DNA of 64,000 nt. Origin: Desulfosudis oleivorans. Its GTDB lineage: Bacteria; Desulfobacterota; Desulfobacteria; Desulfobacterales; SURF-7. Each line of letters starts with the position of its first letter. The stretch's first letter is position 1. A program made the position numbers and the translations under genes. This document shows, one piece after another, positions 18,051 through 63,840 of the stretch. Location: positions 1 through 64,000 of the forward strand of contig DYJC01000010.1 in assembly GCA_020723305.1 (NCBI GenBank). Reading direction: 5' to 3'. Under the pieces are notes generated by a model. The model was not told the DNA's origin, made no database searches, and saw only the letters and a list, made by a program, of their open reading frames with translations.

Positions 18051-18198
18051 AAAAACTGAATAAATCTATTCTGAAAATTATCTCACAAATTTATAAAGTG
18101 CGACCATTTAACGCAGATGATTTTATGAATAACATAAATAAAGGATAATAATGAGTGATCAAAAAGATATTTTGAGTTCCGTGAATTCCAGGAACATC

Positions 18199-18453
18199 CT
18201 ATCTATCTTCCACCCTGCTTTTCGGCCCCGGCTTCCGGGGCTTGAATCTGCAGGCTAAAAGGAATTCCATTTTATCGATAAAAGAATCCTTCCCCAAAGG
18301 GTGGCTGGTTCGCTCATGTATACGGAACAACTCCATTTCAGCTTCCCGTAAGTCATCAGCCAGAAACTTTTTCCATTCCACAGAATTAATATGAAACCCA
18401 AGGAATTCACTTGTTTTTTCCTCATTAAAAACTGAAAAAAGGTTCAAAAACAA
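18199..18453 (-). pseudogene. 3' fragment of a RAYT transposase
   Basis: The last 58 residues (from WKKFLADDLREAE to GPKSRVEDR) closely match the C-terminal tail that follows the stop codon in the RAYT pseudogene at 19206-19883 (FLAVDSQEAEMELFRRHERT and onward). Only the tail is present, so this is a remnant of a second copy. At DNA level it forms a direct repeat of about 185 bases with 19205-19390, flanking the PIN toxin-antitoxin genes. Confidence 0.65.
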
Positions 18454-18794: not shown

Positions 18795-19178
18795 ATGTAT
18801 CTGGTAGACACGAACATATTTATAGAGGTTCTTTTAAAGCAAGAGAAACAGGAACTCTGTAAAAAATTTCTTTCCGCCAATATAGGTAAAATTAATATTT
18901 CTGATTTTACCTTACATTCTATTGGTGTAATTCTGTTTCGGTACGACCAGGCAGATTTGTTTAAACGATTCGTAGCCGATATTATTGCAAACGCCTCTAC
19001 TCCAGTCCTTTCATTGCCTCAAACCATGCTTTTAAATGTAGCTCAGGCGAAAAAAGATTTTAATTTTGATTTTGACGACGCCTATCAATACACAGTAGCT
19101 AAACATCATGGTTTGAAAATAATAACCATGGACAAAGATTTCCAAGCGGTTGCTTCGTCCGATGTCATGTTTTTATAA
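18795..19178 (+). CDS. PIN-domain ribonuclease toxin (VapC-like)
   Basis: The 127-residue protein starts with YLVDTNIFIE, giving the first catalytic Asp, and ends with the FDFDDAYQYTVAKHHGLKIITMDKDF segment that supplies the remaining acidic residues of a PIN active site. VapC-type toxins cleave RNA, often tRNA. The gene begins directly after the antitoxin stop codon, ensuring coupled translation. The pair lies between two remnants of the same transposase, suggesting mobile history. Confidence 0.85.
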   Translation: MYLVDTNIFIEVLLKQEKQELCKKFLSANIGKINISDFTLHSIGVILFRYDQADLFKRFVADIIANASTPVLSLPQTMLLNVAQAKKDFNFDFDDAYQYTVAKHHGLKIITMDKDFQAVASSDVMFL

Positions 19179-19205: not shown

Positions 19206-19883
19206 ATCTCCTACTTGTCTTCCACCCTGCCTTTCGGCCCCGGCTTTCGAGGCTTGAATCTGCATCCTAAAAGGAGTTCCATTTTATCGATAAAAGGATC
19301 CTCCCCCAAAGGGCGACCGGTTCGTTCATGTCTCCGGAACAGCTCCATTTCAGCTTCCTGTGAGTCAACAGCCAGAAACTATTTCCAGTTGCTGCCGATG
19401 ATTCTCCGTAATGAATCTGCTTTCACCAGAACATCATCCCGGCCTTTCGTATGAGTTCCGGCACTGCTCCAGGGCCATTTTTCCGGTTTCTTTACCAGAC
19501 CCGCCCAAACCGGATTCAACTCCACATACCTGGTGCATGCATGCAGATGTCGCTCTTCCATGACAAATGATGAAAACCGGCCCTGCCACAAATGGCCTCG
19601 CCAGCCTTCCCGGAAATTTACCCTCCGGGTATACCGCCTGTGCGCTTCACCAATGGCAGAATTCAATCCATCCTTTGTCTCAGGAACCGCGATCTGATGG
19701 ATATGGTTCGGCATGAGGCAATACGGCCCATATTTCCACATGATACTTTGCACACCACTCTGACATCAATTCCAGATAGGAGATGTAGTCTTCATCATTG
19801 AAAAATGTCTGTTGCCGCTTGTTTCCTCGTTGAGCCACATGATGCGGGAAACCTGGAGCAACCGCTCGTGCAATTCGTGCCAT
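19206..19883 (-). pseudogene. Disrupted RAYT transposase
   Basis: The 5' part (from 19883) encodes ARIARAVAPGFPHHVAQRGN, the typical start of this transposase group, then shifts frame near 19700 to CLMPNHIHQIAVP with the HxH site, VELNPVWAGL, and an in-frame TAG at about 19379. Past the stop the reading continues as FLAVDSQEAEMELFRRHERT to GPKGRVEDK. One frameshift and one stop make the copy inactive. It lies against the end of the cassette array at 19940. Confidence 0.8.
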
Positions 19884-19937: not shown

Positions 19938-19990
19938 CGGAATTCCCAATAAATCAGCCACCGACGAAAGAGGTCGGCTGAATTTTCTTA
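19938..19990 (-). repeat. Putative attC remnant at end of cassette 3
   Basis: On the minus strand GCTAATAAGAAAATTCAGCC is followed by a hairpin whose arms include TCAGCC and GGCTGA. This arrangement resembles an attC site in which the gene's last codons run into the recombination site. The right-hand core is degenerate. Confidence 0.4.
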
Positions 19991-21126
19991 TTAGCATCTT
20001 CCGTGTAGCCATAACTCATATCAATTGCAAACGCTATATCTGAAGACAGAAGCTTTGACAAATCCCCTTGTGCCAACCTCTCGAACAGCACTTTCCATAC
20101 CTTGGAATGAGGCTCTCCAAGATAGAAGGTATAGGCCATTCGTGCATATAGTTGTTCTACAGGTATATCACTCAAGATTTGTCGATAGGTGTCGCTCAAA
20201 TCACCACCCAAACTAAGCCAAGACAAGAATACCAGTCGACATTCATTGTCTAACTCAGGTTTGAACTTTTTTAGGATTTCTACAATATCGATATAGAGTG
20301 TTGGTGCTGCTTCTTCTGAAGTTAATTTTCCAAAGGACCAGTGTTTTTTGTTCCATCGGGCTTCTATGAATTCAAGTGTTGAGGAAATGAGGTCTTTGGC
20401 ACGGGACCGCTCTTCTGACGAAAACGGTGAGTTGGCAGCTAAGCACTTATCCAGCAATTTCGTTGCATAAGCACTCGCCCAAAGATCTGAACTATTGAAA
20501 TCGTCCGCTACCTGTCGCCAGCCTCCGTCATTTTTTTGCCATGCGTTTTTGGGGTCTAACATTGCATCGACAACAGAACGAGTTATTTCATTCCATGGTT
20601 CGGCTACCGATAATATTAGTGCTCCTGCCATTGAGTGTCTGTATGAAACAATTACAGGTTCCCTGACAGGAGACATATTTGGGGATGCAGACTGTGCAAC
20701 ATAGATCCTCTTATTTTGGTAAAGATTGTAAATGCTTGCTTGAGCTAATGACACAGAACGTTTTGCACACCCGTGTCGTAGAAGCATTAGTATCGGCCAG
20801 AAAGTGAGGTACATTCTCGGTTTAAGACTCATATTTTCTTTTGTTCCTTGAGTCTGCCATTTTTTCGATTCGGCGTGAGATGCAGACTTTCCAAATTGTC
20901 CCTTATGGAATCCAACAAGAGACTGATCAGAAATTAATAAACGAAGAAGACGTTTTCGAAAATCCTTGATTGTTGTTGGACTTCCGGACTTTCGACGCAA
21001 AGCAGAGTATCCGATGCTAACAAATACCAGATCAATAAAAGCTCCAACCCAAGTATATCTATACATAGCAGCAAAAACAGCAACTATAAATGCTGCAATA
21101 ATTGATGCAATAATATTTTCAATCAT
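19954..21126 (-). CDS. Membrane-anchored hypothetical protein on a gene cassette
   Basis: A 390-residue protein with one or two N-terminal membrane segments (about residues 3-43), a basic stretch, and a soluble helical part. The segment DGGWRQVADDFNSSDLWASAYATKLL resembles the GGW-type repeats of alpha/alpha-toroid proteins, so a helical toroid fold is possible but unproven. Its last residues (NKKIQPTSFVGG) appear to be encoded by an attC-like palindrome. It follows an attC site downstream of the HerA gene and is read in the same direction, so it is probably the third cassette of the array. A role in defence is only suggested by its neighbours. Confidence 0.6.
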   Translation of the reverse strand: MIENIIASIIAAFIVAVFAAMYRYTWVGAFIDLVFVSIGYSALRRKSGSPTTIKDFRKRLLRLLISDQSLVGFHKGQFGKSASHAESKKWQTQGTKENMSLKPRMYLTFWPILMLLRHGCAKRSVSLAQASIYNLYQNKRIYVAQSASPNMSPVREPVIVSYRHSMAGALILSVAEPWNEITRSVVDAMLDPKNAWQKNDGGWRQVADDFNSSDLWASAYATKLLDKCLAANSPFSSEERSRAKDLISSTLEFIEARWNKKHWSFGKLTSEEAAPTLYIDIVEILKKFKPELDNECRLVFLSWLSLGGDLSDTYRQILSDIPVEQLYARMAYTFYLGEPHSKVWKVLFERLAQGDLSKLLSSDIAFAIDMSYGYTEDANKKIQPTSFVGG

Positions 21127-21140
21127 AGGATTTTCCTATG

Positions 21141-21229
21141 TGCTAACGCTTTAGGTAACCTGCACCGGGCCTATGCAGATGAAGAAAAAAATCGGACTGA
21201 TCCCCTGTGCCAGGTTGATCTAATTAGGC
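21141..21229 (-). repeat. attC-like site between HerA and membrane protein cassettes
   Basis: On the minus strand it begins GCCTAAT one base after the HerA stop and ends GTTAGCA. The internal arms AACCTGGCAC and GTGCAGGTT pair with one extra base bulged, the usual attC feature. Length 89 bases. Confidence 0.6.
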
Positions 21230-22945
21230 TTATTCATTTTTAACTTGCCGACTCTGCAACCGCCATCGCTTTCCAACTTGTGCCAAGCGTTGATCCGTTA
21301 TCGGATCGGACTGCCAACCATTGTCAAAATCTATGTCCTGTGACCGCGGAAGCGGTTTCCCATCTTCCACCAAATCACGTATGAGAATTCGTGATGGCAA
21401 GACAGCTGCCTGCCCAACAAAGATTGCTTCGCGTCGACGAAGCCCCGAGAGTACCTTCGTCAATCCGGAAAGTGAATCAGGTAGTATTCCTTGCACATGA
21501 CTCCGATCCGAATCATTCGTAATGCGCAAGACAATCCATGAATTGCACTGGGACAACACGGTCGCCTCAACCTCACTCGGGCGCTGGGAAACAAGCATCA
21601 GGCCGATGCCGTATTTGCGCCCCTCTTTGGCGAGTCTTCTAATCGCATCCTGCGCGGCCTCGTATTGCGCCTCGCCCCTGTTAGGCACATAACGATGTGC
21701 CTCCTCGCAGACAAGTAGCACTGGGTTGCTTTCCCGCTCCTCTCGTGTCTGCCAAAGCTTCACGGAAAATAATGTTCGCGCAATCGCAGAACTAGTCGCG
21801 CCAGCTACCTCGTTAGGAACACCCGACAAGTCCACGATTCGGATGGGATCACTGTCACCAATGAACTGTTTAACAATACTGAGCAAGGGATCGGCAGTAC
21901 CGTCCCATTCTTTCATCATGAACGCGAGCCGCGAATCATTCTTTAGCACCTCCATCTTGTTGAGTATCGAGTTCCATGAGTCTTGCTTGCTGGCTTGGGT
22001 TGGCATGTCTGTGCTGTTTTTGATGTGGTGAATGAATCGATCAATAGTATAAGGTACTGGTGAGTCGACATTTATTTTCTCGGCCTTGAGGCTTACCGTC
22101 TGTGCGGCATCACGCCGTGCTGCCAATAGGGCGGTCTTAACAATATTGGCTTGGGAAGTGGCCACGAATTCTGTTTTCCCAATAAGCAGACCGATTGTTT
22201 CTTGAAGATTCAAAAGCCAGTATGGGAGACGAAGCGAGTCCTCATCAGTGCATAACCTCACATGGTTTGGGAACGCCGTGCCGTATTCATTATGTGGATC
22301 GAGAACGACGATTTGAGGATGCCACTTCGAATGATTGGCGTCTTTGCCTCGATCAAGAATAGAATGAAGAAAGGCGGCAACCGTTCCCGACTTCCCTGCA
22401 CCGGTTGATCCTAATATGGCCGTGTGCTTGCCAAGAAGATCGTTCATTTCTGCGTAGCAAGGCGTTCCCCCAGAGCCGACATGTTCACCAAGAAGAATAG
22501 TCGGGCCGGTTCCTTCTCCATAGATAAAACCCAACTCGGTACGAGGTGTCAGGTAAACTTTTTGTTGCGGTAAAGGAAAGGTGGTGACACCGCGCTCAAA
22601 GTCCAATTTCCATTCTGTATTGTCGAACGTCCATTCGCCTTCGCCGAATAGATCAGCCTCAATAATGCGCGCGGTTCCGCCAGATTCCGGGGTAAGCCCT
22701 TTCTCACGTTCATATTCGGATTTCATGCGGAGCCGCCCCACATAGCCGAATATCAACCTTGCGCCAAAATGAATTTTGATGATCGAGCCGAATTGCCCAA
22801 TCGGATAAATAATGCCACCATAAACGCGGGTGAGTTCGGTAATCTTCGGGTCGAGTTCCGCAACAATGTGCGTGCCATCTACTTCGATGACGGCTCCAAT
22901 TTCCAAATTGGAAATCGGCTCATTGGGATTTCTGTTTGCTTTCAT
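21230..22945 (-). CDS. herA: HerA-type ATPase of a SIR2-HerA antiphage system
   Basis: The protein is a HerA/FtsK-family ATPase: an N-terminal HerA barrel-like domain, Walker A GSTGAGKSGT (about residue 180), Walker B LLVCEEAH, and RKYGIGLMLVSQRPSE near the C-terminus. An ATG at 22945 overlaps the SIR2 stop as ATGA and follows GGGAGGAGAACG, so this start (571 residues) is chosen over the frame's opening at 22990. In known SIR2-HerA (Nezha) systems, a HerA hexamer assembles with SIR2 NADase/nuclease subunits to abort phage infection. Adjacent attC-like sites suggest that the pair travels as one cassette. Confidence 0.9.
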   Translation of the reverse strand: MKANRNPNEPISNLEIGAVIEVDGTHIVAELDPKITELTRVYGGIIYPIGQFGSIIKIHFGARLIFGYVGRLRMKSEYEREKGLTPESGGTARIIEADLFGEGEWTFDNTEWKLDFERGVTTFPLPQQKVYLTPRTELGFIYGEGTGPTILLGEHVGSGGTPCYAEMNDLLGKHTAILGSTGAGKSGTVAAFLHSILDRGKDANHSKWHPQIVVLDPHNEYGTAFPNHVRLCTDEDSLRLPYWLLNLQETIGLLIGKTEFVATSQANIVKTALLAARRDAAQTVSLKAEKINVDSPVPYTIDRFIHHIKNSTDMPTQASKQDSWNSILNKMEVLKNDSRLAFMMKEWDGTADPLLSIVKQFIGDSDPIRIVDLSGVPNEVAGATSSAIARTLFSVKLWQTREERESNPVLLVCEEAHRYVPNRGEAQYEAAQDAIRRLAKEGRKYGIGLMLVSQRPSEVEATVLSQCNSWIVLRITNDSDRSHVQGILPDSLSGLTKVLSGLRRREAIFVGQAAVLPSRILIRDLVEDGKPLPRSQDIDFDNGWQSDPITDQRLAQVGKRWRLQSRQVKNE

Positions 22946-24078
22946 CGTTCTCCTCCCAACAGCCGTGCAAGAATCTCGAATTTCCACCACGATAACTCAG
23001 CATCTTGCTTAGATTCGTTTTTCCCATGAAAGAAACCTTTATTAGCATATACCCGAATTTGATCGGAAATTGCGGCATCACTCAGCCAGTCTCGCAGTTT
23101 CCCTTCAGGCTCATCAGTGCTAACAAACGCCGCAACGGTCAACCGGCCTTCGGACTGGTACAAGGCGTTCTCAATTTCCAAGTCAATATGCGAATCACCA
23201 AAACTATACCCGCAAATCGCCAGAACCATTTCTTTGCCCTCTTCCGGACACAAGCTCTGACGCATGTAATGCAACATCTGTGCGAACGGATCACGTTGGG
23301 TTTCCTGATACTTTGTCGCAGCGGGGTAGATCAGAACATGATTTCTAACGGAATCGGTCTTGATTCCGGAGCGAATCCGCCTCGGCAGAGAATCATCTTT
23401 CAGCAGACACCAATCAATTGAACCATGAATCTTGAAGACACGGGCTGCCTTCCCGTCGGTTCTGAATGTGCTTGGCTCCCACCAACCTGTTGCCGCACCG
23501 GTGAAACCATCGCAATAGACCACTCGCTCAAGTCCCAGCGCATCCTCAATCAACGTGTCGTAGTTGAGAATGAAATAGTCGACGCCTCTGCCCGTCTTGC
23601 CCGCCTGCAATGAACCGTGTATTGCTCTGATGAATTGCTGGTGCGTCGCGACGTTGACTTCCTTGTCACCGATAGCAGAAGAAACGGCTCCTTTGATCTC
23701 ATCGAGCGCGAATTGAAGTTCAGCCGCGTCTCTTTCTTGATCTCCCGCTGAAACCTTAGACTGAGTTGCTCCGCGACGGGTGCGTCTTTCGGCAATAGAG
23801 AGGAGATCAACGATTTCGCTCATGTAGTCTTCGATAGTGGCGGATTGCGCTCCGGAAAACAACTCGCGAACCTTGTCAAGAAGCTGCTTGGTTTTGTCGC
23901 CGATCTTTTTATGACCCAAAACATTCTCTGTAAGCTCTGGCATCAAGGGAAGCCCTGCGCTCTTGCTGCAACCGGCTCCCAGCAAAAGTGCAAGCCGACT
24001 CTGCGACAGCAAGTCTCGCATGTCTTGGACGACATCCTTCAGGCCGGGTGAGGAGAAAACTGATATGTTGTCACTCAT
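22942..24078 (-). CDS. SIR2-domain protein of a SIR2-HerA antiphage system
   Basis: The N-terminus has the NAD-binding LALLLGAGCSKSAGLP, then NYDTLIED, KIHGSIDW with the likely catalytic His, and ICGYSFGDSHID near the end. Together these define the SIR2-like NAD-consuming domain used in bacterial defence. The ATG at 24078 follows AGGAGGACCA, while the longer frame runs into the attC-like site, so the shorter form (378 residues) is preferred. It is coupled to the downstream HerA gene by a four-base overlap. NAD depletion on phage infection is the known role of the family; here it is inferred. Confidence 0.88.
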   Translation of the reverse strand: MSDNISVFSSPGLKDVVQDMRDLLSQSRLALLLGAGCSKSAGLPLMPELTENVLGHKKIGDKTKQLLDKVRELFSGAQSATIEDYMSEIVDLLSIAERRTRRGATQSKVSAGDQERDAAELQFALDEIKGAVSSAIGDKEVNVATHQQFIRAIHGSLQAGKTGRGVDYFILNYDTLIEDALGLERVVYCDGFTGAATGWWEPSTFRTDGKAARVFKIHGSIDWCLLKDDSLPRRIRSGIKTDSVRNHVLIYPAATKYQETQRDPFAQMLHYMRQSLCPEEGKEMVLAICGYSFGDSHIDLEIENALYQSEGRLTVAAFVSTDEPEGKLRDWLSDAAISDQIRVYANKGFFHGKNESKQDAELSWWKFEILARLLGGER

Positions 24079-24098
24079 TGGTCCTCCTTTTAATAAGC

Positions 24099-24162
24099 AA
24101 CTAACGGTCGGCATGTGAACGCGGCGGCTTTTTTGCCGTTGCACACGATGCCGTGGTTAGGC
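24099..24162 (-). repeat. attC-like site between SEC-C and SIR2-HerA cassettes
   Basis: On the minus strand it runs from GCCTAAC, just after the SEC-C gene, to GTTAGTT. Internal arms CGGCATCGTGTG and CACATGCCG pair with an unpaired base, followed by an inner AACGGC/GCCG stem. Length 64 bases and position immediately after a stop codon are typical of attC. Confidence 0.75.
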
Positions 24163-24166
24163 CCTA

Positions 24167-24985
24167 TTAGCGGTTCCAGAACCTAAAATGTGTATACGAT
24201 TCATTACTTACTTCATGCAAATTATCATTTGCGACTTTGTTCGATAAAATATTTTCTAATAATTTTGTTGCTTCTTTATCGCATAGTGAAATTAGCCTAT
24301 TAGCAAGATACTCTTTCCCTATATCTGCACTTGCATAAATTAATTCTATATTTGTGGGTAGATAATAATTAGCATAGATAGCTTTAGTTCTATTATTATA
24401 CGCTGGAATATTCCCAAGATCAGAATCAACAATAAATCCAATTTTTGAAAAATTATAATGATACGGAGTTGCTGTCATTAATTGAAAAGCTTTCGTCCAA
24501 GCTACATTTTCAATTTGGTTCTGTATATTTCTAAACTCAAAACAATGGATTGGGGCATATTCTGCGAATACCATTTCATTATGACTTGTCAACTTACATA
24601 GCACTACACAACTAACTGAGATGATTTCGCCATTGTTTGTCTTCGTATTTGTATCCATTGCAAAAATCCTATCGAACTTTTGCAATACGATATTCGGGTC
24701 AAAGATTAACTTATTAGGATTGAGAGGTGTTTTATTTAATATTTTAGGTCCCTTTTCCCTATCAAAATTGATGTCGTGATATACGTCAACGGGTGATAAA
24801 GGAAGACCATCCTTTAGCAATTCTATGGAACCTGTAGCTGATAGCCTTAAACCATTTGGGGCAACTGGTTGACCCATGTCCATCGTGATAGAAACTTTTC
24901 TCTGTTTCTTATTCATACAGCACTTTTTAAATTTGTTACCACTTCCACATGGGCAAAGATTATTTCTTTGATTGCCAGTTGGCAT
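24167..24985 (-). CDS. SEC-C motif protein on first gene cassette
   Basis: A 272-residue protein beginning with NLCPCGSGNKFKKCC, the zinc-binding SEC-C motif found at the end of SecA and as a tag in many unrelated proteins. The rest is mixed alpha/beta and unrecognised. Base composition is much more AT-rich than the adjoining SIR2-HerA genes, as expected for independently acquired cassettes. It sits between the attI-like site (25008-25120) and an attC-like site (24099-24162), making it the first cassette. Its role, perhaps defence-related given its neighbours, is unknown. Confidence 0.7.
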   Translation of the reverse strand: MPTGNQRNNLCPCGSGNKFKKCCMNKKQRKVSITMDMGQPVAPNGLRLSATGSIELLKDGLPLSPVDVYHDINFDREKGPKILNKTPLNPNKLIFDPNIVLQKFDRIFAMDTNTKTNNGEIISVSCVVLCKLTSHNEMVFAEYAPIHCFEFRNIQNQIENVAWTKAFQLMTATPYHYNFSKIGFIVDSDLGNIPAYNNRTKAIYANYYLPTNIELIYASADIGKEYLANRLISLCDKEATKLLENILSNKVANDNLHEVSNESYTHFRFWNR

Positions 24986-25007
24986 ATATATCCTTATTTC
25001 ATGGAAG

Positions 25008-25125
25008 GCCTAACCATTGATTGTCAGGTCAATTTTCCCTGGGCTTTTCACGCATATTAGCCCTGATATTAAGTCATTCAATTTTTCGTAATAAATCGCC
25101 TGAAAAAAAGAAACGTTTGGCATAT
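25008..25125 (-). repeat. attI-like recombination region, copy A
   Basis: The core GTTAGGC (complement of 25008-25014) lies directly before the first cassette. About 110 bases beyond it are shared, at roughly 75-80% identity by eye, with 63722-63840 at the head of a second cassette stretch. Shared blocks include CCTGGGCTTTTCA, GCCCTGATATTAA and AATCGCCTGAAAAA. The non-palindromic layout and position at the 5' end of the array fit attI rather than attC. No integrase gene is adjacent. Confidence 0.55.
25054..25081 (-). promoter_or_regulatory. Candidate cassette promoter inside attI-like region
   Basis: On the minus strand TTGAAT is followed after 16 bases by TAATAT, a moderate match to a sigma-70 promoter, and it points into the cassette array. 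This would play the role of Pc. The matching stretch at 63.8 kb is less well conserved. Confidence 0.3.
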
Positions 25126-25249
25126 TGTATTACCCGATGAACAGCCCCCTGCCTTGTCAGCAGTAACTGTTCTGAACAGAATCATTTCCTTCGTATTATG
25201 TCAACATAAAATGACCGGAAACTGCAGGATGAAGTCTTCGAAATCATAC

Positions 25250-25530
25250 GGTTTCATGATTTTCCTATACATAGAGAGAAAGCCGCCAAAATGAGTGCCT
25301 CCAGAGTTGGTGTTCAAGAGATCCAAGGGCGTGGCAGCCTTGGCGAAGACCATACCGTCCTGGCCACTCCGTTTTTGTTAACCATTTGGCCTTGAGTTTG
25401 TTGACAGAGATTCGATCTTTTCAAGAATATTTTTGATTGCTCTTTTGAAATGGACTCAAAATCCTTCCAAGCCGGGTTCTTTCCTCAAAGGCCAAAATAT
25501 CCTCGGCGTCCTCCTACAAGGCCTGCCTGG
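25250..25530 (-). pseudogene. Decayed RelBE-like and thioesterase fragments
   Basis: Reading the minus strand, 25372-25450 gives ILEKIESLSTNSRPNG, a stop, then QKRSGQDG, which follows the RelE toxin pattern. Upstream, EEDAEDILAFEERTR resembles the end of a partner antitoxin. The same frame then runs into LLNTNSGGTHFGGFLSM, a fragment of the DUF4442 gene found intact at 25609-26100. No intact gene remains. The region from 25130 to 25608 holds nothing else recognisable. Confidence 0.45.
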
Positions 25531-25608: not shown

Positions 25609-26100
25609 TCAGACCGAACGGATGTATACCTCCTTATAAACTGTCACAACCACTTCATTATCCTGATTCAGGACATTCACCTCGTAATTCCGGATGGTTT
25701 TCCGGCTCTGTTTTACGATGTTCCGGATCTCCTCGATCTCCGAATCCGGGATATGGAACAATGCCCGGACAGTTCCGGTTCCGGGTTTATGGAATTCAAT
25801 CCGGGCGCTTTTATCCCAGACCAGGTAGTCTTCTCCCAGGTTTTCAATCAGGATGAACATGAAAAACGGATCGCACATGGAGTAGAGGGAGCCGCCGAAA
25901 TGAGTGCCCACATAGTTGGTGTTCAGGGGTACCAGGGGCATGGTGACTTCAACCGTGTTGGAATCCACAATTCTCGGGGAAATGGATGCGCCCTGATATG
26001 GGCCGAAACTTTTGAACGCCTCTTCCATACCGTAAGTCTTTCTCATGAACTGCCATAGCGGATTCAGGCTGAAGCTGGATTTCTGTTTTGATGGATTCAT
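25609..26100 (-). CDS. DUF4442 hotdog-fold thioesterase-like protein
   Basis: The sequence NTNYVGTHFGGSLYSMCDPFFM is the helix of a hotdog fold as found in DUF4442/YiiD-C-type proteins related to thioesterases. The ATG at 26100 (MNPSKQ) follows AAGAAGGA and is preferred over the longer frame to 26145, which overlaps the end of the upstream permease gene. Its 163 residues match a single hotdog domain. It probably acts on acyl-CoA or an acyl carrier, but the substrate is unknown. It is the last gene of a likely operon with the DUF401 permease and CoA transferase. Confidence 0.75.
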   Translation of the reverse strand: MNPSKQKSSFSLNPLWQFMRKTYGMEEAFKSFGPYQGASISPRIVDSNTVEVTMPLVPLNTNYVGTHFGGSLYSMCDPFFMFILIENLGEDYLVWDKSARIEFHKPGTGTVRALFHIPDSEIEEIRNIVKQSRKTIRNYEVNVLNQDNEVVVTVYKEVYIRSV

Positions 26101-61626: not shown

Positions 61627-61740
61627 TTAGTATTTCAAGTATATTTTGAGGTAACAATGAAGAAGACACGTAACAGGAATCCATTCACCTTTCTCAAAGC
61701 TGTCGAGAATCTCTTTTTCTTCTTTTACCAATTTAATCTT
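61627..61740 (-). pseudogene. Antitoxin-like fragment
   Basis: A short frame beginning MKIKLVKEEKEILDSFEKGEW resembles the N-terminus of CopG-type antitoxins of other toxin-antitoxin pairs, but ends after 37 residues with an unrelated tail. It may be a truncated remnant. Confidence is low. Confidence 0.35.
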
Positions 61741-61859
61741 CATATTTTTTCTCCAAGATATCGTTCTGCTGTCTTCCTGCTTGAGATTATGATCTTCAGA
61801 AATACCTATTTGTGTAGCGGAGCGGAACACCAGTCACGTGGAGAAAATGGTTATATCTT

Positions 61860-62333
61860 TTATTCGTTTTCACTTGTTTGATAAATAATTTTTTTGGGAA
61901 AATCATAAAAAACAACTTGGCTAAGATAAAATGGAGTTCCAATTATCGCTTCCCCAAAAAATGAAGTGCAATGCCCTAATAAAGCACCTCCTAAAATGCT
62001 TCCCAAAAAAGGAGCCAAATAAATTCCTTCCGGATTTTTAACAACAAAATATGGCATAAATAAAATTCCTATTGTGCCACCAATTAGACCGCCAGAAAGC
62101 ATACCAGGTATAGCACCAATAAGTCTACCACCTGCGGCTGGAAACCAAGTAAATTTTGTTATACCAGTTTTGTTGCCTTTAAATCTTTCACTTCTGTTTT
62201 CATATTCCTTATAAATATGATTTTCTTTTAAGAAATCATCTATCCCACCGAAAGGAGTATGGGCATATGCATTTTTCAATGAACTGATCAGGAAGAATAT
62301 TATCACCGAAATAATTAAGGTGGCTGTTTTCAT
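61860..62333 (-). CDS. Exported protein with glycine-zipper segments, second cassette of array 2
   Basis: A 157-residue protein with a signal peptide (SSLKNAYA-H) and two glycine-rich hydrophobic segments (GGLIGGTIGILFMP and APFLGSILGGALLGH), resembling glycine-zipper membrane insertion segments. It lies just beyond the attC-like site at 62355-62421 and is read in cassette orientation. Base composition is AT-rich, unlike the neighbouring SEFIR gene. Function unknown. Confidence 0.6.
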   Translation of the reverse strand: MKTATLIISVIIFFLISSLKNAYAHTPFGGIDDFLKENHIYKEYENRSERFKGNKTGITKFTWFPAAGGRLIGAIPGMLSGGLIGGTIGILFMPYFVVKNPEGIYLAPFLGSILGGALLGHCTSFFGEAIIGTPFYLSQVVFYDFPKKIIYQTSENE

Positions 62334-62354
62334 TCTACCGTTCCATTTTATTAG

Positions 62355-62421
62355 ATATAACGACCAAGCTCAGCCGAGGAGGCGCGGCAGCGCCGACGTA
62401 GGCTGGAGCGCATGGTTAGGC
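62355..62421 (-). repeat. attC-like site after the SEFIR cassette
   Basis: On the minus strand it runs from GCCTAAC, twelve bases after the SEFIR stop, to GTTATAT. Inner arms GCTCCAGCC and GGCTGAGC pair, with a further GGCGC/GCGCC stem. Length 67 bases. This is the most typical attC-like site of the window. Confidence 0.78.
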
Positions 62422-62432
62422 GTCGCCCGCAT

Positions 62433-63695
62433 CTATGTGACCTCGCCCTTTTCAAACCGTTGAACGATGTCCTCGTAAATCTTGTCTTCGAACTGCTGGA
62501 AATCAAACAGAAGAAATAGCGGCTCCACTATGCGCTGCACGTCTTTAACCAGGGTCTCGTGAATATTTCCAACTTTCACCACAATTTCGGCTTCTGATGT
62601 GTCTTCGCTTGTTGCCCGAGCCATACCAATCATGCGATTCGGATTCGAAGTACCCAGTGTTCTCCCCTTTAACCCGCGGTGCGTCACTCGCACACTCAGC
62701 TGAGTATCTCCGGGCACTCCTAGATTCGCGTAAAGGTTTTTAGCAAAGAGCAATGACTCAGTGACGCGGACAATTCGGGTGTTGAAAAACATACTCTCCG
62801 CCTTGCGTGAGTCCTCGAAAAGGCTTTGCAGTAGGTAGAAGTCGCCTGACCTCTTGAGCGCCCAGTAGTCATATGACTGGTGATCACGACCCGCAATCTC
62901 AGCCTTGACGCCATCCGCGTATGGTTTGGGGCGGTATTCGTCCTTCGATTCGATCAAGACGCCGATCGGCCAACCGAAGGTTCGTATCTCAGACTTGCGG
63001 ATTGCGTTAAGCAACTCGATCTGCGATTTTGAGACAGCATGATGGAGTGCGAAACGAAGTTCCATCTGACCTGGAAGTGACATTCCGGAGATGCCTTTCC
63101 GCGCGATAGTTGACTCTGTCTCGAACCATATGTCGTTGAGAACAGAGCTGCCTCCGTTGGTAACACCTGTCGGACCAGTTGATCGCGCTGGAGCCAGTGA
63201 CTTTTCTACTACGCCTGAGAATGGATTGGAGCCTAGTGGCGGCTTAGCTAGCGTGGGCATGCCGTGGATCTCACGAAATAGATCCTCGCATCGTTGCTGG
63301 TACGTCTTGTCGTCATCGAAGTCGATGTATAGCCTGGGGCCTAGAAAGGAGGGGGTTTTCGCCGCACTGCGGTTGCCCCTAACAAGCGGAATGAACTTCT
63401 TTGTGTCGATTGCTGAGATCACTTCTGCCGTTACTACCAAACGTTCATAGCCGACGCCTCCTGAACCCCCGTCTGCTTTCGCCACGTATTTGTCCGAACA
63501 CACCATAAGCACGCGATCAGCAGACACTATTCCTTTGTGCATAAAGGTTGCCAAATCTTGGCCAGGCGATAGATCCCATTGATCCAGGGTTGCGTCAATT
63601 CCGGCCCCGCGAAGATCTGTTGCCAGCTGTCGCACCCAAGCCTTATGTTCGTCAGAGTCGTGCGAGTACGAGATGAATACGCGGGGATTGCTCAA
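62433..63695 (-). CDS. SEFIR-domain protein on a gene cassette
   Basis: The N-terminus NPRVFISYSHDSDEHKAWV followed by GIDATLDQWDLSPGQDLATFM matches the SEFIR/TIR-like domain, which in bacteria occurs in proteins of antiviral signalling. The C-terminal 250 residues are unrecognised. The frame opens at 63746 within the attI-like region, but a TTG at 63695 follows GGAGGCACA, just inside the cassette, and is the likelier start (420 residues). Residues for NAD hydrolysis are not securely identifiable. It sits between the attI-like copy B and an attC-like site. Confidence 0.75.
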   Translation of the reverse strand: MSNPRVFISYSHDSDEHKAWVRQLATDLRGAGIDATLDQWDLSPGQDLATFMHKGIVSADRVLMVCSDKYVAKADGGSGGVGYERLVVTAEVISAIDTKKFIPLVRGNRSAAKTPSFLGPRLYIDFDDDKTYQQRCEDLFREIHGMPTLAKPPLGSNPFSGVVEKSLAPARSTGPTGVTNGGSSVLNDIWFETESTIARKGISGMSLPGQMELRFALHHAVSKSQIELLNAIRKSEIRTFGWPIGVLIESKDEYRPKPYADGVKAEIAGRDHQSYDYWALKRSGDFYLLQSLFEDSRKAESMFFNTRIVRVTESLLFAKNLYANLGVPGDTQLSVRVTHRGLKGRTLGTSNPNRMIGMARATSEDTSEAEIVVKVGNIHETLVKDVQRIVEPLFLLFDFQQFEDKIYEDIVQRFEKGEVT

Positions 63696-63721
63696 ATGTG
63701 CCTCCGATGTGTTTTTGTGAC

Positions 63722-63840
63722 GCCTGACCATTGATTCATAGGTCATTTTGACCTGGGCTTTTCAGGCATTTTTGCCCTGATATTAAATGAATCAGCTTTT
63801 CTCGAAAAATCGCCTGAAAAATGGTAAACATTTAATCAAA
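63722..63840 (-). repeat. attI-like recombination region, copy B
   Basis: Shares CCATTGATT, CCTGGGCTTTTCA, GCCCTGATATTAA and AATCGCCTGAAAAA with copy A at 25008-25125 in the same order and spacing. The core here is GTCAGGC (complement of 63722-63728) instead of GTTAGGC. The region after it to 64000 holds no gene; no integrase was found. Confidence 0.55.

Follow-up and report, generated by a model that had tools for sequence, protein, structure and literature searches.

Gene content of the array

Integrons are bacterial sites that gather genes as exchangeable cassettes. The window analyzed here covers the initial 64 kb of contig C34, which is 199 kb long and belongs to a genome of 5.4 Mb in 47 contigs. 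Between 19.94 and 25.27 kb it contains an attI site and three cassettes with four coding sequences, all on the minus strand, which agrees with the three minus-strand gene units of the original prediction, each found where it had been placed.

Cassette 1 (24105..25013, minus strand) lies between the attI junction and the first attC site and encodes a 272 aa protein (CDS 24985..24167), in which a SEC-C motif (Pfam PF02810) is the sole feature matched. Cassette 2 (21147..24104, minus strand, 2,958 bp) carries a SIR2 gene (24078..22942) and a HerA gene (22945..21230), identified by PADLOC with E-values of 8.7e-74 and 1.6e-130, respectively. The two reading frames overlap by 4 nt, and SIR2 starts at the ATG at 24,078. 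Cassette 3 (19945..21146, minus strand) encodes a 390 aa protein (CDS 21126..19954) without a match to any known family in protein family searches, and shows 86% identity across 1,199 nt with a cassette of a sister species, G009 (L043:10796-11994). As predicted, base composition differs between the cassettes: the GC content is 35.3%, 50.1% and 41.1% for cassettes 1, 2 and 3, against 46% for the window. An Rfam search of the entire 64-kb window gave zero matches.

Next to the array, a PIN-domain gene (18795-19178) is flanked by a 179-nt direct repeat (18197-18375 and 19209-19387, 88%), and an IS200-like transposase fragment (19379-19753) adjoins this region.

attC sites and cassette boundaries

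A home-made scanner, too permissive for significance, was used solely to propose attC sites, which were then assessed with two covariance models. Model R1, built from eight attC sites of class 1 cassettes (plasmids) and one G009 site, detected none of the three sites of the array in a search of the window. A broader model, R2, was therefore trained on class 1 sites and on sites from other platforms of the genome (described below), with the three sites held out.

The site after cassette 1, attC 1 (24099..24162, minus strand), is complete. It begins 4 bases past the stop of the 272 aa gene, scores 27.1 bits with R2 (E=1.8e-4 over both strands of 64 kb) and folds with an attC-typical extrahelical base (z -2.6). 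The second site, attC 2 (21141..21229, minus strand; GCCTAAT ... GCGTTAGCA), is degenerate: neither model matches it, its fold is no better than shuffles (z -0.6), and its 3' junction, G|TTAGCA, is taken from the comparison with G009:C8, the contig of the sister species that carries an intact integron. The third site, attC 3 (19938..19996, minus strand), sits inside the final codons of the 390 aa gene, lacks a GTTAG end and reaches a score of 7.8 bits (E 1.9 over 5 kb). The G009 copy of this cassette has a full attC, GATTAAATCGTTAGGT, ending in GTTAGGT, and the homology of the window to G009 is lost directly past the L' arm; attC 3 is therefore broken, and other DNA occupies the place of its 3' R arm. 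Of the three attC sites, attC 1 alone is statistically convincing by itself. The original prediction had placed a palindrome with GCCTAAC/GTTAG-like ends directly after the stop codon of every unit and had proposed a covariance-model search as a check. Both the ends and the position are as described after the 272 aa gene and HerA but not at the third site, and the search gave significance to site 1, no match to site 2 and a low score to site 3.

Comparison with the sister species defines the boundary that attC 2 leaves uncertain. In a BLAST comparison between platform regions, the 390 aa unit (19,952-21,150) has an 86% identical counterpart among the cassettes of the intact G009:C8 integron. 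The alignment starts at ...AGCG|TTAGCA, while the upstream neighbors differ, HerA here and another cassette in G009. Since the homology starts exactly at G|TTAGCA, the right end of the HerA cassette is confirmed despite the poor attC 2. The outcome that would speak against cassettes, no attC and no similar boundaries elsewhere, is thus not what we found, because attC 1 is significant and the junctions shared with G009 are cassette-exact.

An attI site and an integrase relic at the head of the array

The array is headed by an attI core (25014..25043, minus strand), with the recombination point G|TT between 25014 and 25013. Over the last 27 bases up to the junction, this core matches the G009:C8 attI without a difference. 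In array direction, the end of attI and the start of cassette 1 read CAGGGAAAATTGACCTGACAATCAATG|GTTAGGCC, and the junction of the intact G009:C8 integron reads CAGGGAAAATTGACCTGACAATCAATG|GTTATGCC. The core of about 30 bases shows ~86-93% identity in genomes across the order, and its surroundings are not conserved. A promoter scan of attI revealed nothing exceeding chance.

The segment from 25,001 to 25,273 (plus strand), upstream of the cassette 1 gene, aligns at 71-72% identity with the beginning of contig C1, where the counterpart runs into a near-complete integron integrase gene (TIGR02249, pieces 1-117 and 120-315 of 315, split by ten Ns). In the window, this segment holds an intI relic (25198..25273, plus strand) that extends over the start codon and ~25 codons, is interrupted by a stop at codon 4 and has lost the remainder of the gene by deletion; the relic has 71-72% identity to the intI start on C1 and on other copies of the platform. 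A functional intI in cis is thus lacking. The usual integron layout has intI on the plus strand, then attI, then the cassettes on the minus strand, and the order of relic, attI and cassettes at 25 kb matches it. Neither the attI site (25014..25043) nor the intI start relic (25198-25273), nor a second array at 61.8-64.0 kb, was part of the original prediction. Beside the relic, the 60 bases at 25275-25334 are an 80% copy of positions 25884-25943 within the neighboring thioesterase-like gene, possibly a trace of platform insertion or rearrangement.

One alternative is an ordinary defense island whose genes are followed by terminators or repeat palindromes by coincidence. Such an island would agree with one significant palindrome in three, and with SIR2-HerA occurring elsewhere, in other phyla, mostly without detectable attC. 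However, it accounts neither for an attI and an intI relic at the correct end and in the correct orientation nor for the cassette-exact sharing with the sister integron, and we consider it extremely improbable. Another alternative is a CALIN, a cluster of at least two attC sites without an integrase; the array has one significant and two degenerate attC sites, and the attI and the intI relic are also present. Two proposed origins of CALINs are the loss of a recognizable intI and the off-target insertion of cassettes at a secondary site (PMC8618304). The missing intact integrase in cis would fit the second origin, without any platform, but the array starts at a recognizable attI beside an intI start, so integrase loss is favored and off-target insertion appears very improbable.

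Together, our results suggest, with a probability of roughly 0.88, that the region from 19.94 to 25.27 kb is a small chromosomal integron whose intI has been deleted to ~25 codons and which keeps attI and three cassettes, including SIR2-HerA. The integron-like cassette array originally proposed is thus supported by the attI match, attC 1 and the junction shared with G009, in a form whose integrase is deleted and whose last attC is broken. Against this reading are the lack of significance of attC 2, the break in attC 3 and the ten-N gap in the C1 integrase, as well as two negative results described below: R2 detected no attC beside SIR2-HerA in other phyla, and comparison with the sister genomes gave no clean empty site. 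In the mechanism we propose, the cassettes would have been inserted by an integron integrase, which may be the enzyme once encoded in cis or the near-complete one of C1; the platform's own intI has been lost down to the first ~25 codons, with attI and the cassettes kept.

SIR2-HerA as a two-gene cassette

Both PADLOC and solved-structure matches assign the adjacent SIR2 and HerA to antiphage families. The best solved-structure matches of the two proteins are chains of the deposited SIR2-HerA complex (8w9l, 8wiv), and their matches share further entries such as 8wld and 8woc. The Asn and His of the SIR2 NADase are retained, with LNYD and KIHGS aligned to TNYD and KLHGS of 8w9l; in a V. cholerae homologue, both residues of SIR2 are needed for phage resistance (PMC11559045). 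The window pair shares with the known SIR2-HerA system (Nezha; PMC11559045, PDB 8w9l, 8wiv) both proteins, the gene order and overlap, the conserved N and H of SIR2 and the Walker A motif of HerA. In contrast to the V. cholerae copy, which is located in a genomic island, the pair here lies in an integron cassette. By analogy with the characterized relatives, SIR2 and HerA would form a complex that depletes NAD+ upon phage infection.

The R' arm of attC 1 bounds SIR2-HerA on one side and the validated 21,147 junction on the other, so the pair forms a two-gene cassette. The original prediction had suggested this arrangement on sequence grounds, and the attC 1 junction on one side and the G009-validated junction on the other bear it out. 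The pair is thus predicted to be a complete two-gene antiphage system captured as one cassette.

With a cutoff of E <= 1e-60, SIR2 has no match in the remaining genomes of the genus and only one elsewhere among the 389 class genomes searched (48% identity). It is 78-84% identical to records from Phycisphaerales, Peptococcaceae, Thermogutta and Synergistaceae. The nucleotide similarity to SIR2-HerA of other phyla starts at 24,088-24,093, a few bases into the cassette, and, in contigs that extend far enough, ceases close to the HerA stop codon. In a Thermogutta MAG (L103:729-4180), SIR2-HerA lies directly behind, and in the same orientation as, an N-terminal integrase fragment (TIGR02249 positions 7-117) and is followed by GCCCAACAATGGCATGGACGCGG, an attC-like 5' half, which suggests an independent integron context and a possible second capture as a cassette. 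A search of SIR2-HerA loci from other phyla (L101-L105, including the Thermogutta locus L103, and L107) with R2 found no attC, so the Thermogutta context falls short of proof.

SIR2-HerA could also have entered between two cassettes by another route, in which case the R'-like junctions would belong to its neighbors. The degeneracy of attC 2 favors this scenario, as does the end of the similarity to other phyla near the HerA stop, so that the pair has no conserved attC of its own. However, GCCTAAT lies just past the HerA stop, the SIR2 leader begins exactly where attC 1 ends, neither a transposase nor a repeat is found at the SIR2-HerA ends, and the Thermogutta copy sits behind an intI fragment. 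We therefore regard entry by another route as unlikely and capture as a cassette as the better account.

A second array in the window

The second array (61.8-64.0 kb) has an attI core (63728..63757, minus strand) with 81% identity to that of the first platform and 84% to that of a platform on contig C43. After attI, an intI start relic (plus strand), recognized by its homology to other platforms, extends to about position 64082 of the contig. The first cassette (62361..63727, minus strand) encodes a bSEFIR-type defense protein (ORF 63746..62433; PADLOC bSEFIR 5.1e-72; Pfam TIR_2 2.3e-24 and SEFIR 2.4e-14), whose true start may be nearer 63695. The SEFIR/TIR domain is what it has in common with the bSEFIR defense protein, as the PADLOC model matches residues 15-186 only and leaves the C-terminal part uncovered. 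The attC of this cassette (62355..62421, minus strand) is complete and scores 25.1 bits with R1 (E=0.0015 in 64 kb; model hit at 62,418-62,358). The second cassette (61811..62360, minus strand) encodes a 157 aa protein (62333..61860), and its attC is cut in half.

The 157 aa cassette has a counterpart on contig C88 of G009 (98.4% identity over 552 nt) that retains the full attC, and the homology starts at the R' cut point. Since the flanking chromosomal DNA at this locus shows ~81-83% identity between the two species, the cassette would have moved recently. Both shared cassettes, the 390 aa and the 157 aa one, are shared from the base after the cut G, that is, exactly at the R' cut. These comparisons indicate movement of cassettes from the platforms of one species to those of another.

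On the left flank of the second platform, the match to G009 stops at 61,810, precisely where the integron ends. Past the broken attC, positions 61700-61810 contain the C-terminal end of a gene present in intact form on contig C13 of G009 (by eye, a small BrnT-like toxin gene), which makes the integron end a deletion junction. No clean empty site was found for either platform: in G009, the right flank alone is conserved for the first platform, and other DNA is present at the second. A candidate pair of empty and filled attI sites (C45 and G010:C68) was ambiguous owing to a short ORF beside attI. Just outside the window, positions 65609-65721 of the contig (L011:1609-1721) carry a short repeat of ~40-110 nt, possibly a REP-type element, with dozens of copies across the genomes of the genus.

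Scattered platforms across the genome

The segment with attI and the intI start occurs in ~14 copies on 10 contigs of the genome (two on C34, three on C1, two on C44 and one each on C2, C3, C13, C30, C41, C43 and C45), these counts being minima, and recurs repeatedly in two sister genomes, G009 and G010. The platforms are ~70-80% alike, and intI is truncated, at differing points, in all copies but one (C1:24). Contigs C1 (L009:1-40) and C41 (L029:1-40) begin at the same point beside attI; the assembly therefore breaks at platforms, and the array of the near-complete integrase is not seen. Seven platforms have a model-supported attC on the cassette side, namely both in the window and those on C13, C1b, C43, C44b and C2. 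Some of these sites were used to train R2, whereas those of C44b (E=1e-4) and C2 (E=0.006) were not.

The cassettes over the platforms include SIR2-HerA, bSEFIR and, on C43, a TIR-like effector candidate, as well as, by eye, small toxin-antitoxin-like genes. The C43 candidate (C43:111501-112283; L134:7502-8284) is a 260 aa TIR-like or nucleoside deoxyribosyltransferase-like protein (PADLOC TIR effector 1.7e-8). In one orthologous pair of platforms, C1c and G009:C6, the flank, the intI relic and attI align but the cassettes do not.

One possible explanation is that the scattered platforms are decaying remnants in which cassette exchange is over. Almost all intI copies are truncated, several with stops, the platforms are only ~70-80% alike, and the array ends are eroded; pseudo-integrons are also common in general, with about a third of intI genes being pseudogenes (PMC2426708). 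However, the attI cores are retained while intI is lost, a cassette with 98.4% identity between species in flanks of ~81-83% points to recent movement, and orthologous platforms carry different cassettes. We see the chances of this explanation as evenly balanced. It is also tempting to speculate, with less confidence, that the genus has a distributed integron, in which about a dozen scattered attI platforms, mostly stripped of their integrase, might be served in trans by one IntI. Just as tentatively, each platform might hold a few expressed cassettes, including several antiphage systems, in place of a single long array.

Discussion

Integrons are present in Desulfobacterota among other phyla (PMC8618304), and more than one integrase occurs in about 20% of genomes with an integron (PMC9024848). 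Antiphage cassettes have been reported in chromosomal integrons (Darracq 2025; Getz 2025) and in mobile integrons (Kieffer 2025), all as cited in PMC12444791. With those systems, the arrays reported here have attI, attC and antiphage cassettes in common, but they differ in being many, short and scattered, with integrase relics, in an environmental lineage and with a two-gene SIR2-HerA cassette. CALINs and pseudo-integrons (IntegronFinder, PMC9024848; PMC2426708; PMC8618304) likewise have an attC array without a functional integrase in cis, and intI pseudogenes are common, whereas here attI and the intI start are recognizable and there are ~14 such sites in one genome. In a literature search that covered few subscription papers, we found no published description of SIR2-HerA as a cassette or of a dozen attI relics in one genome. 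Thus, defense cassettes in integrons are already known; more unusual are the ~14 scattered platforms with attI and intI relics and one near-complete integrase elsewhere.

To the defense cassettes of Vibrio and mobile integrons, our analysis adds an environmental lineage in which a complete two-gene SIR2-HerA cassette lies 40 kb from one with bSEFIR. It also raises the question of whether an integrase acting in trans could load and unload many genomic sites, with each cassette staying beside an attI rather than far inside a single array. The sister species, with orthologous platforms but differing cassettes, make this question testable.
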